The position numbers and the translations under genes were made by a program. From Thiovibrio frasassiensis (GTDB taxonomy: Bacteria > Desulfobacterota > Desulfobulbia > Desulfobulbales > Desulfurivibrionaceae), in NCBI RefSeq assembly GCF_029607905.1, contig NZ_JAPHEH010000001.1, positions 1,145,530 to 1,209,529 of the forward strand: a DNA stretch of 64,000 bases, given 5' to 3'. The notes under the pieces are model-generated. The model was not told the origin of the DNA. It saw nothing but the letters and a program-made list of their open reading frames with translations, and made no database searches. Below, piece after piece: positions 41,257 through 47,722 of this stretch. Each line of letters starts with the position of its first letter. Within the stretch, counting starts at the first letter, position 1.

Positions 41257-41275
41257 TGGTGCGGAGGTCGGTATC
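41257..41275 (-). repeat. Distal attachment site: degenerate copy of the tRNA-Leu 3' end
   Basis: TGGTGCGGAGGTCGGTATC matches TGGTGCCGGAGGTCGGAATC at 47636-47655 with one missing base and one substitution. This is the expected att copy for integration into the tRNA T arm and CCA end. Confidence 0.7.
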
Positions 41276-41330
41276 TAACTGAGCATGTAATTAGCTGTTT
41301 TGCTACCTGAATATCGTTTGAAAAATTTCT

Positions 41331-41353: not shown

Positions 41354-41721
41354 CTTTGTGCGCTGCTTTGCTTCCAACATCGCGATCTGACTGAAAATAA
41401 TGAATTTCCCCTGTACGGCTAAACTCGACCATTTTAGCCTCGGCAATCTTGATAAAAAATCGGTATTCTAACAGAAGGGCAACCGAAAGTGATGGTTGCC
41501 CTTAACTAATGAAAAGTAAAAGAAAAATAGTAAAAAACAACGTATTAACTATTAGTTAAAAGTTAATAAGGAATGAAATGAATTGACTCGAGCGTCTAGA
41601 ATAAACAAAAAAGTTGTTTTTTTCGACAATTTGCCTATCAAAAAATACCTTTTAAAAAAGATAACTTGAGGATAGAATATTATCGATCTTGATCGATCCC
41701 AAAAAATCAGCGGAGGATTTA

Positions 41722-42174
41722 ATGAACAGAATTTTTCTCGTTTTATTTTTTCTTGTCGGGTTAACAGGATGTGCAAGTGTTCAGCCATTAAACACCCCCA
41801 GTTCAAAACCAGAAGTCACAATTCCCAATGGGCAAAAGAAAGCTGTCATCGATAAAATTACGAACATGATGCTCGGGCGGGGATATAAAATTAAAAATAT
41901 CAATGAATACAGTGCAGTATTTGGAAAACCATTACAGTCTACAGGGGCGGCTATTTTATTTGGCTCCCAATTTAACACAACCCCAGAAGGAAGGATCAGT
42001 TATAACATTGTGGATACCACTAAAGGTGTTCGTGTCATTGGAACTCTCGAGGTCGTCACCAACCCTGGAAGTGGGCTAGAGCGCGTAACGGATTTAAGCC
42101 AAAACAGCAAGAATGCTCACGAATACCAGCAGTTGCTGGAAGAAGTTGCCGCTTCTTTTGAGGGTGTAAAATAG
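41722..42174 (+). CDS. Element-encoded lipoprotein of unknown function
   Basis: ATG 41722 has a strong GGAGG upstream and gives 150 residues. The lipoprotein signal is MNRIFLVLFFLVGLTGC. The mature part has a predicted mixed alpha/beta domain: KKAVIDKITNMMLGRGY, then strands YSAVFGKPL, GRISYNIVDT and GVRVIGTLEV, and a closing helix. It is the only clear plus-strand gene of the element and may be cargo. Lipoproteins of phages and satellites sometimes block superinfection, but nothing here proves that role. AT-rich compared with chromosomal genes. Confidence 0.78.
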   Translation: MNRIFLVLFFLVGLTGCASVQPLNTPSSKPEVTIPNGQKKAVIDKITNMMLGRGYKIKNINEYSAVFGKPLQSTGAAILFGSQFNTTPEGRISYNIVDTTKGVRVIGTLEVVTNPGSGLERVTDLSQNSKNAHEYQQLLEEVAASFEGVK

Positions 42175-42639: not shown

Positions 42640-42695
42640 CACTATGTTACTTCGTAACATAGTGGATTGGGGACTGAGTCTTCGCCTCAGTCCCC
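42640..42695. terminator. Twin perfect hairpins between converging element genes
   Basis: CACTATGTTAC/GTAACATAGTG (11-bp stem, 42640-42664) and GGGGACTGAG/CTCAGTCCCC (10-bp stem, 42669-42695, loop with TTCG) are 4 bp apart. They lie between the plus-strand lipoprotein and the minus-strand polymerase-like gene. No T-run follows, so they may be a bidirectional terminator or part of a structured RNA. Confidence 0.5.
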
Positions 42696-42865
42696 ATATT
42701 GGAGCATCTTATTAGCTAAACCGATGCAATGTTGCTTATCTCCTCCCCCTTAACCAAACCAGGAACCAAGGATACCCATAGTATGGCACTCCTCCCTTCC
42801 TCCTCGTATATAAGGGCTATAAGTCGGGAAGTAATTCCCAAAAAACAGATAGTTAATATAGCAAT

Positions 42866-44137
42866 TTATTTTATGGGGCATGAGAAGCCCCCTGAGTGCT
42901 TTTTGTAGGCGTCACCCATGACCTGATGCAGTTCATCTCTGTATTTTTCCTGGACGATAAAACTATCGTGAATGGCTAGGATCGGGACGCCTTTGCCTGT
43001 GAAGTATGCAATCACATCTAGGGCAATGGATGCGTCCTTATTCATCACACGTAGGCCATTGTCGTTATCAGCGCAAAAGTGATGGGCGATGAGTTTGTGG
43101 GCATCCTTGAAAAGGTCAATGATCTGACGGGCCTTGGTGATACCGTACTTCTCCAGCCGCGTTTTCCATTTTGGATTCTCGCCGATGCGCTGATTGATGC
43201 CACCTTCAGCGTTAGCCTCTGCTGTGCGCTGGTAGCCTTTCTTTCCTTTTGGCTTGACCCACCCATTTTTTGCATTGAGGAGGGCGAGGAGGCATTGTTT
43301 AAGGAAGTCCCGTAGTTCAGGAGCGTCCAGTACGACGGAATATGGGTCGAAATCTAGTTGCTTCCCTTCAGCTGCGTAAAGTATATGGGGATGCAGAGCG
43401 CTAAAGTCCAGTTCAACGACCTCCTCGCCATTTATAGCGATCCTACCCCGCTTATCCTCACTGAGCCCCTGGCAATGAAAACAGCCCTTAGTATGCAGGC
43501 GACCATACAACGTGAATTTGTGGTGGAAGATGGCCGTTAGAGCAGTGCTTACAGCTTGTTTTCCGTAAAGGATTTCAGCGGCTCGGTTGACCTCGTTGGC
43601 TTTTTTCAAAATCCTCTTGATTTGGATGGTTCGGGCTGTGTCTTTGTAGTCTTTGGGTTTTCCATTTTTGTCCTTCAAAATGACCAGCTCAGAAAACGGG
43701 GGATCAACGACAATATCAGGTGAATGTACTTTCTCGAAGTGGGCCAGTAGTTTTTCTGTCGGCCAAACTTTGCTGTAACGGGCAATAATTTTGGTTCCTC
43801 TTCTGATATCCAGGAACCCGTGATCTTTCAACTTGCGAACCAGAGGGGCCATTGTGGCTTCTATCGTTTTTAGTGCCATCTCGATTGGCCGCCGGTCACG
43901 ATAACGTAAAAGATTTGCAATGATGATCTCAAGTTTCTGACTGGTGTCCTGTCGTTTCGCTAATTCGCACACATTATGTATTTCTTTGACCACCACAAGA
44001 CTCTTTCCTTTGAGTCTGTACGAGGTATCAAATCGCACCGATCTTTCATAGAGCCACCACCCTGTGCCCTTTTGATTCTCAACTTGCCGGCGGGCAATTT
44101 CCCTAACAATTTCATGCAATGACCTGTATTTTGACAT
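42866..44137 (-). CDS. Family-A polymerase-like replication/primase protein of the element
   Basis: ATG 44137 is chosen because AAGGGA lies 9-10 bp upstream (a GTG three codons earlier is possible); 423 residues. The N-terminal part has a winged-helix-like stretch (MAPLVRKLKDHGFLDIRRG, about 96-114), as in replication initiators. The C-terminal half shows three motifs of the DNA polymerase I / T7 RNA polymerase superfamily. Motif A is ELDFSALHPHILY (Asp244); motif B is R-x3-K-x7-N (Arg276, Lys280, Asn288); motif C is AIHDSFIV (His390-Asp391). Spacing of motif B matches T7 R627-K631-Y639, but the Tyr is Asn, and the position of the Pol I steric-gate Glu is His. I infer a primer-making or replicative polymerase; no exonuclease domain is present. 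Confidence 0.65.
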   Translation of the reverse strand: MSKYRSLHEIVREIARRQVENQKGTGWWLYERSVRFDTSYRLKGKSLVVVKEIHNVCELAKRQDTSQKLEIIIANLLRYRDRRPIEMALKTIEATMAPLVRKLKDHGFLDIRRGTKIIARYSKVWPTEKLLAHFEKVHSPDIVVDPPFSELVILKDKNGKPKDYKDTARTIQIKRILKKANEVNRAAEILYGKQAVSTALTAIFHHKFTLYGRLHTKGCFHCQGLSEDKRGRIAINGEEVVELDFSALHPHILYAAEGKQLDFDPYSVVLDAPELRDFLKQCLLALLNAKNGWVKPKGKKGYQRTAEANAEGGINQRIGENPKWKTRLEKYGITKARQIIDLFKDAHKLIAHHFCADNDNGLRVMNKDASIALDVIAYFTGKGVPILAIHDSFIVQEKYRDELHQVMGDAYKKHSGGFSCPIK

Positions 44138-44374
44138 TTTCCGCACTTCCCTTGGGCGCGTAATCCCTGATTAAAATATTGTGGGGAATGATTGTCAGGG
44201 AAACAATCCTTGTTGGTTCAGGGAGCTACCCTTCACCTATCCCCCCAATTTGATATTTTTAGGTGTGATGCGGACGATCCCACCAAAGACTATGTTGCCT
44301 GTCTTGCAAGGCCGTGTTTGGACTTTTTCGAAAGCGGGGAGGGCGATTTCAGCTCTTTGCCTCACAAAGGAGGA

Positions 44375-44436: not shown

Positions 44437-44700
44437 TTACTTCTGGACGCGATCTTCCTCTTGGCTTTTTCCTTGGTACGGTCGAACCGGCCAGAGTGGG
44501 CAACTCTTAACAGGGCAAACTCGTACTTCGCCTTTTTGATCGTTGCTACAATTATAGCATTTTGCGTTAATCGCGAGCCGTAGTGACTTTGGGTTTTTAC
44601 TTGCCTTTTGCATCGGGTTCGCGAAGGTAATCTTCTCCCCGGCTATTATCCGTGCCGCTTTTGCTTCGCGCGCCTTTCGTAATCCGTCATTATTGGTCAT
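44437..44700 (-). CDS. Small Cys-rich (zinc-ribbon-like) phage/element protein
   Basis: The 87-residue protein starts at ATG 44700 with GGAGGCC upstream. It has a basic N-terminal helix and then AINAKCYNCSND, VRVCPVKSC and PLWPVRPYQ. This pattern of four Cys plus a CPLWPxRPY tail is familiar from small proteins of prophages and integrative elements whose role is unknown; zinc binding is likely. Confidence 0.65.
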   Translation of the reverse strand: MTNNDGLRKAREAKAARIIAGEKITFANPMQKASKNPKSLRLAINAKCYNCSNDQKGEVRVCPVKSCPLWPVRPYQGKSQEEDRVQK

Positions 44701-44806: not shown

Positions 44807-45049
44807 TCAGGAGGCTTTTCTTGCCTCTATCGCGCCTTCCAGTCGAGATTTGAGAAAATTCCGCCGTCCACGCAACCGCCCCAAGGATTCTTGGAGTGAC
44901 TTGAATTCGGGGGCATGAAAATTGATCGTTTCTCTATGAAAAAGCTTATGGAATTTTCTGAGATGCATCCAGAATTCGTTAAGTTTCACTGCCATCATTT
45001 TTAGTTTCTCTGAGGATGCTTCAGTGTTTTCAAGGGAAAAGGCAATCAT
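44807..45049 (-). CDS. Small helical protein, unknown
   Basis: The 80-residue protein is predicted to be mostly helix: EKLKMMAVKLNEFWMHLRKF, then SLQESLGRLRGRRNFLKSRL. It starts at ATG 45049, overlapping the stop of the alpA-like gene by 4 bp (ATGA), so it is translationally coupled. No recognised family. Confidence 0.6.
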   Translation of the reverse strand: MIAFSLENTEASSEKLKMMAVKLNEFWMHLRKFHKLFHRETINFHAPEFKSLQESLGRLRGRRNFLKSRLEGAIEARKAS

Positions 45050-45279
45050 GCTACCACCTCCTTTGCCATGGATTCAAGTAAGCCTAGAATCTCTGAAACT
45101 CGCCAACCGGTGCACCTTTTGCTTAGCTTGATTGGCTTGGGGTAACGGCCAGACTTGACTCCCTGCCACCATGTGGTTTTGCTGACTGGGATGATTGGGG
45201 GGGTGCCGGTCTTGGGATTGCCGACGATTTGAGCAAGGCGCAAAAAGCCGGTGGGGGGAAAGGGTGTTGCTGTCTGCAT
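45046..45279 (-). CDS. AlpA-like excisionase/regulator
   Basis: The 77-residue protein resembles AlpA/MerR-like DNA-binding proteins of P4-type elements: GFLRLAQIVGNPKTGTPPI, VSKTTWWQGVKSGRYPKPIKL (helix-turn-helix and wing) and WRVSEILGLLESM. AAGGAGGTATTACC precedes ATG 45279. AlpA proteins control integrase and excision genes. A dense repeat array lies just upstream of it. Confidence 0.78.
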   Translation of the reverse strand: MQTATPFPPTGFLRLAQIVGNPKTGTPPIIPVSKTTWWQGVKSGRYPKPIKLSKRCTGWRVSEILGLLESMAKEVVA

Positions 45280-45346: not shown

Positions 45347-45404
45347 GTGTCCACTAGTGGACTGTCAAGGTGGACAAGGCGGACAAATTGCGGACAAGAT
45401 GGAC
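45347..45404 (-). repeat. Operator or iteron-like array upstream of the alpA-like gene
   Basis: Minus strand: TTGTCCGC, TTGTCCGC and TTGTCCAC in tandem (9-11 bp apart), a further TGTCC/GTCC unit on either side, then the perfect 14-bp palindrome GTCCACTAGTGGAC. Closer to the gene, GGTTAA-ACCTCC-TTAACC forms another dyad (45327-45344). The array ends at the stop codon of the upstream gene. Confidence 0.6.
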
Positions 45405-46123
45405 TATTTCAAAAGCCGTTCACCTCTTTTTCTGAATGCATCAGTCGTAACAATAGACCCATTCCCTGTGATTAGCCTACCTATTCGGGAAGGGTTAATT
45501 TTGGGGAATGCTCTTTTTAATTCTTGTGCAATCGCCTTATCGGTCATCCCTGCCTCTTTCAGTTGTTTGACCATGGCCTCTTCTGCTTCATTGCTCTGGT
45601 TGATCAACTTATTATCTTGGCTGGAACTTGTCTCCTGAGACCTGGGCTGGGTGGTCATTTTTACAGGTCGTTCTGCTAGCTCTTGGTACTTATTTTCCAT
45701 GCGGACAGCTTCTCTGTTCATGACGATTAATTCTGATTTTGACAAGATTATGGTGTTAAATTTGTATAATCCTTCATCATCAAGCCTTTCCGAAAAAATC
45801 CATTCGGTTTTATTCATTATCACAGAATCTATCTCTATTGTTTTTAAGAAAATTAAGTCAGTGATATTCGATGTAAATAATTTGATAGGTCCACAAAAAT
45901 CACGGCAATACTTATTTGAAAGTCGAATTACTTTTCTCGAATTATTAAAGGTATCCACCCCATATTTTGATATTGTTATATATTTATTTATGACTGAACC
46001 ATGATAATAAAACCAGAATTTAAGTCGGCCCTGCTTTCCCCAGTCTAAAAGGATGTCTTCGCCTATGCCCCAATGTTCAGCCAATTCAGTCAGTTTGTAA
46101 AAACTTCTTTCGGGTAAAACCAT
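45404..46123 (-). CDS. Element protein of unknown function with an HTH-like N-terminus
   Basis: ATG 46123 has GGAGG 7 bp upstream, giving 239 residues. The first 40 residues (FYKLTELAEHWGIGEDILLDWGKQG) look like an excisionase/MerR-type winged helix. The middle is an unassigned alpha/beta part. Near the C-terminus MVKQLKEAGMTDKAIAQELKRA resembles a second helix-turn-helix. It may be a DNA-binding regulator acting on the adjacent repeat array. No family recognised. AT-rich relative to the chromosome. Confidence 0.65.
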   Translation of the reverse strand: MVLPERSFYKLTELAEHWGIGEDILLDWGKQGRLKFWFYYHGSVINKYITISKYGVDTFNNSRKVIRLSNKYCRDFCGPIKLFTSNITDLIFLKTIEIDSVIMNKTEWIFSERLDDEGLYKFNTIILSKSELIVMNREAVRMENKYQELAERPVKMTTQPRSQETSSSQDNKLINQSNEAEEAMVKQLKEAGMTDKAIAQELKRAFPKINPSRIGRLITGNGSIVTTDAFRKRGERLLK

Positions 46124-46233
46124 TGGCACACCTCCGTCTTGGTTTCCCTGAAAAAAACGGCGTGTCGGCCGTCAGGGTAAGGGCTTTATGGTCCGTGGTC
46201 TAGCCAGTGGCACCCAAATTCAGATTCGCATTT

Positions 46234-47457
46234 TTAGCCAGCATCCCTAATAGGTATGATCTCAGCGCCAATCTTGATCTTGTCCAAATAGTCAGCCCAG
46301 GCCTGCATCATGGCTTTACGCTCAGGAAGATAGGTTGTCCGATTATAGGCCCTGCCTAACGGATCGCGAACAGCGTGCGCAAGTTGATGTTCTATCAACT
46401 CAGGACGGAAACCAAGCACTTCATCAAGAATCGTTCGCGCCATTGCCCGGAATCCATGGCCAGTCAGCTCTAACTTGGTATCAATCCCCATGCGCCGCAG
46501 TGCGGCATTGATGGTGTTGTCGCTCATCGGTCTTGAAGCGGATCGCGCGGAGGGGAAAACATATCTTCCTGATCCGGTCAAGTCGTGTACCTCTCTCAAT
46601 ATTTCTACTGCCTGTCGGGATAATGGAACAAGGTGTTCAGCCTTAGTTTTTGTGGCCATGTAACGCCATTCGGCGCTATCCAAATCAATCGCCGCCCATT
46701 CTGCATGGCGTAGTTCTCCTGGACGGACAAAGACAAGCGGTGCCAGCCGCAAGGCGCAGGCGACTACAAAAGAACCGTCATACCCAGCAATCATGCGCAG
46801 GAGTGGGGCGACTTCTTTCGGGTCTGTTGGTGCCGCCATGTGCTTTGGCTTGACCGGGGGTAATGCTCCGCGCAATGCGTCAACGGGGTTATGCGTGGCC
46901 TTGCCGATGGCGATAGCGTAACGATAGACTTGACCACAAGTAATCTTTGCGCGATGTGCTGTTTCAAGGGTTCTGGATTCGATACGGCGTATGACGGCTA
47001 ACATTTCAGGTGGGGTGATTTCATTCATCGGTCTGATACCAATGAAGGGGAAAACGTCTTTTCCGAGTCTAGTCATTATGGATTCGGCATGGCCTACAGT
47101 CCATTTATTCTTAAATCTATTGTGCCACTCTCTGGCTACAGCCTCAAAGGTACCATCCCCGGCAGCTTTGGCCTTTTCACTTTTCCTCGAGACTGCCGGG
47201 TCAATCCCTGTCGCTATTTGTTTCCGTATCCCGTTGCGCTGCTCTCTGGCAAGGGATAAAGTGACCGTAGGATATTCTCCAAGGGAAAAAGAATTTTCCT
47301 TTTTGACAAAGACGGTTTTCAACTTCCACCACTTTTTCCCGGTCGGTTCAATAACAAGCCACAAGCCTCCCCCGTCACGCAAGGAATATGTCTTGTCTTT
47401 GGTCTTGGCGGTCTTGATTGAAACGTCTGACAGTAAATCTTTCCCTATTTTAGGCAT
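46234..47457 (-). CDS. int: Tyrosine-family integrase, P4 type
   Basis: The 407-residue protein has the N-terminal SLRDGGGLWLVIEPTGKKWW arm-binding domain (DUF4102-like) of P4-type integrases, a core-binding domain near 100-200 and the catalytic set Arg245 (RPGELR), His334-x-x-Arg337 (HGFR), His361 and Tyr376 (TTYLPER). It should integrate the element at the tRNA-Leu 3' end, which lies 178 bp upstream of its start. GGAGGTAGGCGCT precedes ATG 47457. Confidence 0.93.
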   Translation of the reverse strand: MPKIGKDLLSDVSIKTAKTKDKTYSLRDGGGLWLVIEPTGKKWWKLKTVFVKKENSFSLGEYPTVTLSLAREQRNGIRKQIATGIDPAVSRKSEKAKAAGDGTFEAVAREWHNRFKNKWTVGHAESIMTRLGKDVFPFIGIRPMNEITPPEMLAVIRRIESRTLETAHRAKITCGQVYRYAIAIGKATHNPVDALRGALPPVKPKHMAAPTDPKEVAPLLRMIAGYDGSFVVACALRLAPLVFVRPGELRHAEWAAIDLDSAEWRYMATKTKAEHLVPLSRQAVEILREVHDLTGSGRYVFPSARSASRPMSDNTINAALRRMGIDTKLELTGHGFRAMARTILDEVLGFRPELIEHQLAHAVRDPLGRAYNRTTYLPERKAMMQAWADYLDKIKIGAEIIPIRDAG

Positions 47458-47635: not shown

Positions 47636-47722
47636 TGGTGCCGGAGGTCGGAATCGAACCGACATGGGGTTGCCCCCGCGGGATTTTGAGTCCCGTGCGT
47701 CTACCAGTTTCACCACTCCGGC
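47636..47722 (-). tRNA. tRNA-Leu (CAA)
   Basis: The 87-nt minus-strand tRNA pairs acceptor GCCGGAG with CTCCGGC. The anticodon stem GGGA/TCCC surrounds CTCAAAA (anticodon CAA). A long variable arm and GGTTCGATTCC in the T arm mark it as a leucine-type class II tRNA; CCA is encoded. It is the attachment site of the element. Confidence 0.96.

Follow-up and report, generated by a model that had tools for sequence, protein, structure and literature searches.

Introduction

Pipolins are integrative elements that carry their own self-priming family B polymerase (piPolB). They resemble the element described here in concept only, that of an element-encoded self-priming polymerase; the polymerase family differs, being B in pipolins and, by prediction, A here.

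TV-Pols are minimal family-A polymerases of 400-600 aa that were predicted to be primase-polymerases (Iyer, Abhiman and Aravind 2008, PMC2579912). They were described from small viruses and from mobile elements that carry an integrase or resolvase, with linkage to a D5-like helicase as one of their two contexts, and the Microcystis phage Ma-LMM01 was cited as a source (PMC2579912). Their landmarks comprise an absolutely conserved hairpin Arg, two Asp residues, a fingers Asp and an RxxxK motif (PMC2579912). CcPol, the TV-Pol of SCCmec, is a proven DNA primase that prefers dNTPs and requires both Asp residues; priming depends on the OB-fold partner MP, and CcPol alone only extends primers (PMC7581432). 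As far as the literature examined shows, CcPol is the only TV-Pol to have been tested biochemically. PolA-SSB pairs related to CcPol-MP occur in Bacillota (PMC10061031). PICMI satellites have the gene order int-iolg-alpA-up1-prim-up2, and deletion of prim lowers their copy number and reduces transduction to below detection (PMC10803314).

The locus described here lies in a window of 64,000 nucleotides from Thiovibrio frasassiensis. The encoded protein is best described, in our judgement, as TV-Pol-like, a new member of a kind known since 2008. All sequence landmarks of TV-Pols were found (R216, D247 and D394, D267, R279xxxK283), and the length of 426 aa, the lack of a nuclease domain and the additional N-terminal domain also agree. 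TV-Pol settings are echoed across the family by lambda-type integrases or resolvases and by nearby restriction-modification genes; Rhodobacterales, Geobacter, Desulfococcus and Paracoccus are common to both groups. Unlike in TV-Pols, no D5 helicase was seen beside the polymerase gene in the loci examined.

By analogy, the best functional precedent would be CcPol-MP/PolA-SSB, in which a family-A polymerase without proofreading likewise forms part of a replication module in an integrative element. Those systems differ in their Bacillota hosts, serine recombinases, OB-fold partner and operon helicase, none of which was identified here. In architecture the element resembles PICMI, being small and arranged as integrase, extra gene, alpA, small gene, replication gene and cargo, and the polymerase stands where PICMI have prim. 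However, PICMI encode a DUF3987/DUF5906 primase and lie downstream of fis in Vibrio, whereas here a family-A polymerase is found at tRNA-Leu in a non-Vibrio host; no DUF3987/DUF5906 primase was matched by Pfam in the tested ORFs of the element. Membership in PICMI was rejected because the primase and the insertion site differ.

Element boundaries and gene content

The polymerase gene sits in an integrative element of approximately 6.4 kb at tRNA-Leu. From the tRNA, the gene order is integrase, a 241 aa ORF, AlpA, ORFs of 80 and 87 aa, the polymerase and, at the far end, a lipoprotein cargo gene. The insertion target, tRNA-Leu(caa) (47636-47722, minus strand), was identified with ARAGORN and Rfam and by the empty site in a congener (G002), where the two flanks are joined directly; the 3' end of this tRNA gene is the intact att copy. 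A search for exact att repeats of at least 11 bases gave no convincing attR. Alignment with the congener's empty site (L055) revealed a degenerate second copy at 41257-41280, at the distal end of the element (tggtgcggaggtcggtatctaac, compared with TGGTGCCGGAGGTCGGAATCGAAC at the tRNA). The empty site and this degenerate repeat of the tRNA 3' end together bound the element at approximately 6.4 kb. Its G+C content is lower.

The tyrosine integrase gene (46234-47457, minus strand) adjoins the tRNA and was matched by PF22022 (E 7e-31), PF13356 (E 1e-20) and PF00589 (E 3e-16). The 241 aa ORF (45404-46129, minus strand) lies between the integrase gene and alpA, the position of iolg/icg in PICMI, and had no convincing family match in Pfam, NCBIfam or PHROGs. 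An AlpA-family regulator or excisionase is encoded at 45046-45279 (minus strand; PF05930, 24.7 bits against a cut-off of 21). The 80 aa ORF (44807-45049, minus strand) had no family match in the same three collections. Directly upstream of the polymerase gene, a Cys-rich protein of 87 aa (44437-44700, minus strand; CxxC...CxxxxC) showed weak similarity to ORFs placed just upstream of the polymerase gene in Methylophaga (L090) and Nitrosospira (L088).

Downstream of the polymerase gene, a repeat search found two perfect hairpins in tandem in noncoding DNA (42640-42696), with stems of 11 bp and loops of 3 and 7. These could be a terminator, or pair of terminators, or an origin element; Rfam matched the tRNA only. 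The cargo gene (41689-42174, plus strand) encodes a putative lipoprotein of 161 aa (LPAM_1, PF08139, 20.2 bits against a cut-off of 20). No other replication gene was matched in the element with Pfam, NCBIfam or PHROGs, and no MP-like partner of the polymerase was identified there.

In another congener, this tRNA-Leu is occupied by a 16 kb element (L056:1602-17716) that encodes a related integrase together with an HUH Rep (PF23343, E 5.6e-10). The same site thus holds non-homologous replication genes, HUH Rep in one element and the polymerase in the other, which by analogy supports a replication role for the latter. Also present in the 16 kb element are two very long ORFs resembling sensor kinases and one that is Fic-like.

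Polymerase gene and family alignment

The polymerase gene occupies 42866-44146 on the minus strand, with a GTG at 44146 as the start of the 426 aa frame. An earlier note on this DNA had given a span to 44137, which begins at Met4, with the strand unstated; its numbering equals the 426-aa numbering minus 3, and its Asp244, Lys280, Asn288 and Asp391 are D247, K283, N291 and D394 here. The protein is designated a TV-Pol-like family-A superfamily polymerase on the basis of PHROGs, AlphaFold2, Foldseek, VIA-align and motif counts. Residues ~45-145 are predicted to be winged-helix-like and residues 150-426 to form the palm and fingers, which hold R216, R233, D247, H252, D267, R279, K283, N291, H393 and D394.

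The only PHROGs family matched was phrog_4756, of unknown function (E 7e-51), and a sub-threshold RNA polymerase match was seen near motif C. Pfam and NCBIfam gave no polymerase match, the Pfam profile for Pol I (PF00476) included, and PDB searches with the single sequence and with a profile found no polymerase. As the earlier note had read from the letters, an exonuclease domain is lacking: no nuclease or exonuclease family was matched in Pfam, NCBIfam or PHROGs.

All motif counts were taken from a family alignment of 113 homologues, in which motifs A, B and C stand in the order that had been claimed. R216, R233, D247, R279 and K283 are invariant (113/113). N291 of motif B is Asn in 107/113, the fingers Asp D267 is kept in 106/113, H393-D394 in 112/113 and S395 in 110/113 (motif C HDS). 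H252 is His in 99/113, with Gln in 10, Asn in 2 and Met in 2. Such near-universal residues across the homologues indicate that the motifs did not arise by chance.

In Pol I, motif B has a Tyr, the steric gate is a Glu and motif C reads HDE; the position equivalent to N291 is also Tyr in T7 RNAP. H252 occupies the D+5 position, which is that of Glu710 in Pol I and Gly542 in T7 RNAP. In the present protein these Pol I hallmarks are replaced by Asn, His and HDS. An active-site change unique to this copy was considered and rejected, the same residues being present in the 113-sequence family. The replacements of Tyr by Asn and of Glu by His were read correctly in the earlier note, but they are common to the whole family and in register in a Ma-LMM01 protein (see below), and so do not set this copy apart. 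By the alignment, the motif-B Asn, the gate-position His and the RNAP-like motif C HDS form a family-wide signature.

Profile-profile comparison with Pol I aligned the motif-A region only (P 0.018; GRLS...QNIP...DYS), with R216, which lies in strand 215-220 of the AlphaFold2 model, placed on the Arg of GRLS. Comparison with T7 RNAP aligned the motif-C stretch only, and no alignment was obtained with T7 DNA polymerase. A search of Ma-LMM01 with the family profile likewise gave nothing. Among the ORFs of that phage, gp030 (L419:22749-24266), which lies beside a transposase and is annotated as hypothetical, came top at E 0.16; it gave a marginal hhalign P of 0.004, with R216, R233, D247, H252, K283 and N291 in register. 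From this we infer that gp030 is probably the TV-Pol of PMC2579912. At the profile level, the family is tied only weakly to Pol I, to T7 RNAP and to the Ma-LMM01 candidate.

Predicted fold

An AlphaFold2 model built from the family alignment had a pLDDT of 88.7 and a pTM of 0.83. Its best 50 Foldseek matches in the PDB were all family-A DNA polymerases (top E 3.4e-6). VIA-align, in which a family missing from the list is not thereby excluded, gave Z scores of 14.7 for apicoplast Pol (245 residues, 4.0 Å), 14.5 for yeast mitochondrial RNAP and 13.9 for T7 RNAP, with superpositions of about 240 residues at 3.6-4.1 Å. In the model a strand ends in motif A, R279 and K283 share one helix, and HD394 lies between two strands, as expected. 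Among viral structure models, the protein's own family matched best (E 4e-23 to 4e-17). Phage DNA polymerases came next, together with the replication protein of the Zamilon virophage at E 5e-4. The structure prediction proposed as a check in the earlier note returned a palm and fingers fold of the family-A/T7 RNAP type. On its motifs and modelled fold, the protein is assigned to the family-A polymerase/single-subunit RNA polymerase superfamily.

Residues 1-152 were also folded alone. The 50 listed matches were almost all winged-helix proteins (MarR, Fur and PadR types) with Z scores of 5.5-7.2, which are middling and below a conclusive level but uniform in kind; the N-terminus is probably a winged helix, as had been suggested.

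Distribution and phylogeny

When 84,980 genomes of bacteria and archaea were searched with a profile, 271 stretches with relatives were found, and 80 of these were kept. Searches of viral contigs with small profiles gave 44 and 48 loci, while a single-protein query of the viral and genome collections found no relatives. By tblastn, relatives were found in 192 phage records, all below 60% identity. The matches were mostly to large Rheinheimera, Vibrio and Aeromonas phages, and nearly all of those listed were annotated as hypothetical. Virulent phages are among the carriers of the polymerase family. Large myoviruses of Aeromonas, Vibrio, Pseudoalteromonas and Rheinheimera hold the same family (phrog_4756) in genomes of 80-145 kb, unlike the 6.4 kb element. 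Within the host's taxonomic order, relatives are distant only. The family, which has no name in Pfam or NCBIfam, is widespread among proteobacteria and phages and has defined signatures in its active site. In Barbavirus Barba31A, the polymerase gene (L018:7581-8885) is present alongside the phage's own annotated primase and DNA polymerase.

A tree was made using FastTree and midpoint rooted. The nearest neighbour of the window protein is a viral contig protein (L149; support 0.994), and the two belong to a branch (support 0.825) made up of 14 proteins from phages and 20 from viral contigs. This phage-type branch stands apart from most copies in bacterial elements. The contig of the closest relative (L149:1-5250) also encodes three serine recombinases, as well as a partial ORF resembling a D5 primase-helicase.

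Proposed role and alternative explanations

The protein is probably a TV-Pol-type minimal polymerase that acts as a primase-polymerase, starting and extending DNA for its own element. Its role would equal that of Prim in PICMI, or of the HUH Rep encoded by the 16 kb element of the other congener. The following course is proposed from excision onward. The integrase, assisted by AlpA, would excise the element as a circle; the winged-helix N-domain would bind single-stranded DNA or the origin of the element, and the palm and fingers domain would synthesise a primer on this circle and then extend it. Replication would be completed by a helicase and a polymerase of the host or of a helper phage, the helicase having to come from one of them because none was recognised in the element. 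Several observations count against this reading: CcPol primes only with MP, and no MP-like protein was identified here; no D5 helicase, the classical companion of TV-Pols, was seen next to the polymerase gene in the loci examined; the profile-level links are weak; and the AlpA layout is confined to four of about 90 loci.

A further-reaching proposal is made tentatively and is more doubtful than not. The family, with its Asn/His/HDS signature, may be a distinct family-A subfamily of single-protein, origin-recognising primase-polymerases that work without a D5 helicase or SSB partner, replace the primase in PICMI-like satellites and are shared with large virulent phages as possible helpers.

It is unlikely, though it deserves weight, that the protein is instead a primer-dependent DNA polymerase of the element or of phages, extending primers of host or helper or repairing gaps without self-priming. 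Such an activity would suit the Foldseek result, in which DNA polymerases are nearest, as well as the coexistence of the gene with an annotated primase and DNA polymerase in Barba31A and the behaviour of CcPol, which without MP only extends primers (PMC7581432). A second extender would, however, bring little gain to a 6 kb element, and no primase or Rep was matched in the element, whereas an HUH initiator is encoded by the 16 kb element that a congener carries at this tRNA.

An improbable reading is that of a single-subunit RNA polymerase transcribing the genes of the element or phage or making RNA primers. Motif C HDS (110/113) and a family Q-x-x-D-S stretch are nearer to T7 RNAP than to Pol I, and the VIA-align Z scores for T7 and mitochondrial RNAP are about equal to those for DNA polymerases. 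The catalytic part comprises only ~275 residues, however, motif A is D-F/Y-S as in DNA polymerases, and CcPol prefers dNTPs (PMC7581432).

There is similarly little probability that the gene has no current role and that the island is merely what is left of a decayed element. The second att copy is degenerate and relatives within the host's order are distant, yet the frame of 426 codons is uninterrupted and keeps every invariant catalytic residue, and those of the integrase and AlpA are likewise intact.

The self-priming primase-polymerase remains the preferred reading. The observation of the earlier note, that a small integrative element encodes a family-A superfamily polymerase, is confirmed by the motifs and modelled fold and by the att repeat, empty site, integrase and AlpA. 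Its interpretation is partly supported. A primer-making or replicative enzyme is most likely by analogy, with no other replication gene matched and an HUH Rep at the same tRNA in a congener; for unusual sugar selectivity, nothing was found beyond the residues themselves, and CcPol-MP, compared by kind and not by residues 252 and 291, prefers dNTPs (PMC7581432). The signatures, the delimited 6 kb host element and the empty site make the 2008 prediction of self-priming family-A polymerases testable outside SCCmec. If the proposal is true, phage-satellite-like elements can swap a primase for a family-A polymerase.

Gene neighbourhoods

A tyrosine or serine recombinase was found near the polymerase gene in 71/89 bacterial loci at a median of 1.4 kb, a raw frequency without a matched control, and a tRNA or tmRNA was near in many loci. 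Restriction-modification genes were among the commonest neighbours in two neighbour-family scans (raw counts without a matched control region). A cargo role as a defence or anti-phage effector, like the Abi reverse transcriptases, is very improbable: restriction-modification and related genes are common neighbours and the elements resemble defence islands, but the gene adjoins int/alpA and belongs to the backbone, unlike the variable cargo; it is also carried by virulent phages, and PADLOC gave no match.

AlpA lies between the integrase and the polymerase in only four of about 90 loci, those of the window, two Desulfogranum and one Methylophaga. The order int-X-alpA-(small)-pol is repeated in the Desulfogranum loci, one at tRNA-Leu and one beside tmRNA, and in Methylophaga. 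D5_N was found in 10/44 host genomes and, as judged by coordinates, at no polymerase locus among those examined.

In Nitrosospira (L088:8388-9792) and Thiobacillus (L112:8025-9707), a series of small ORFs of phage-like character precedes the polymerase gene, and some copies may accordingly be prophage genes; one of the Nitrosospira ORFs resembles an internal virion protein. At two further loci (L062:8585-9400 and L063:6544-7371), a common unnamed gene of 272-276 aa adjoins the polymerase gene.
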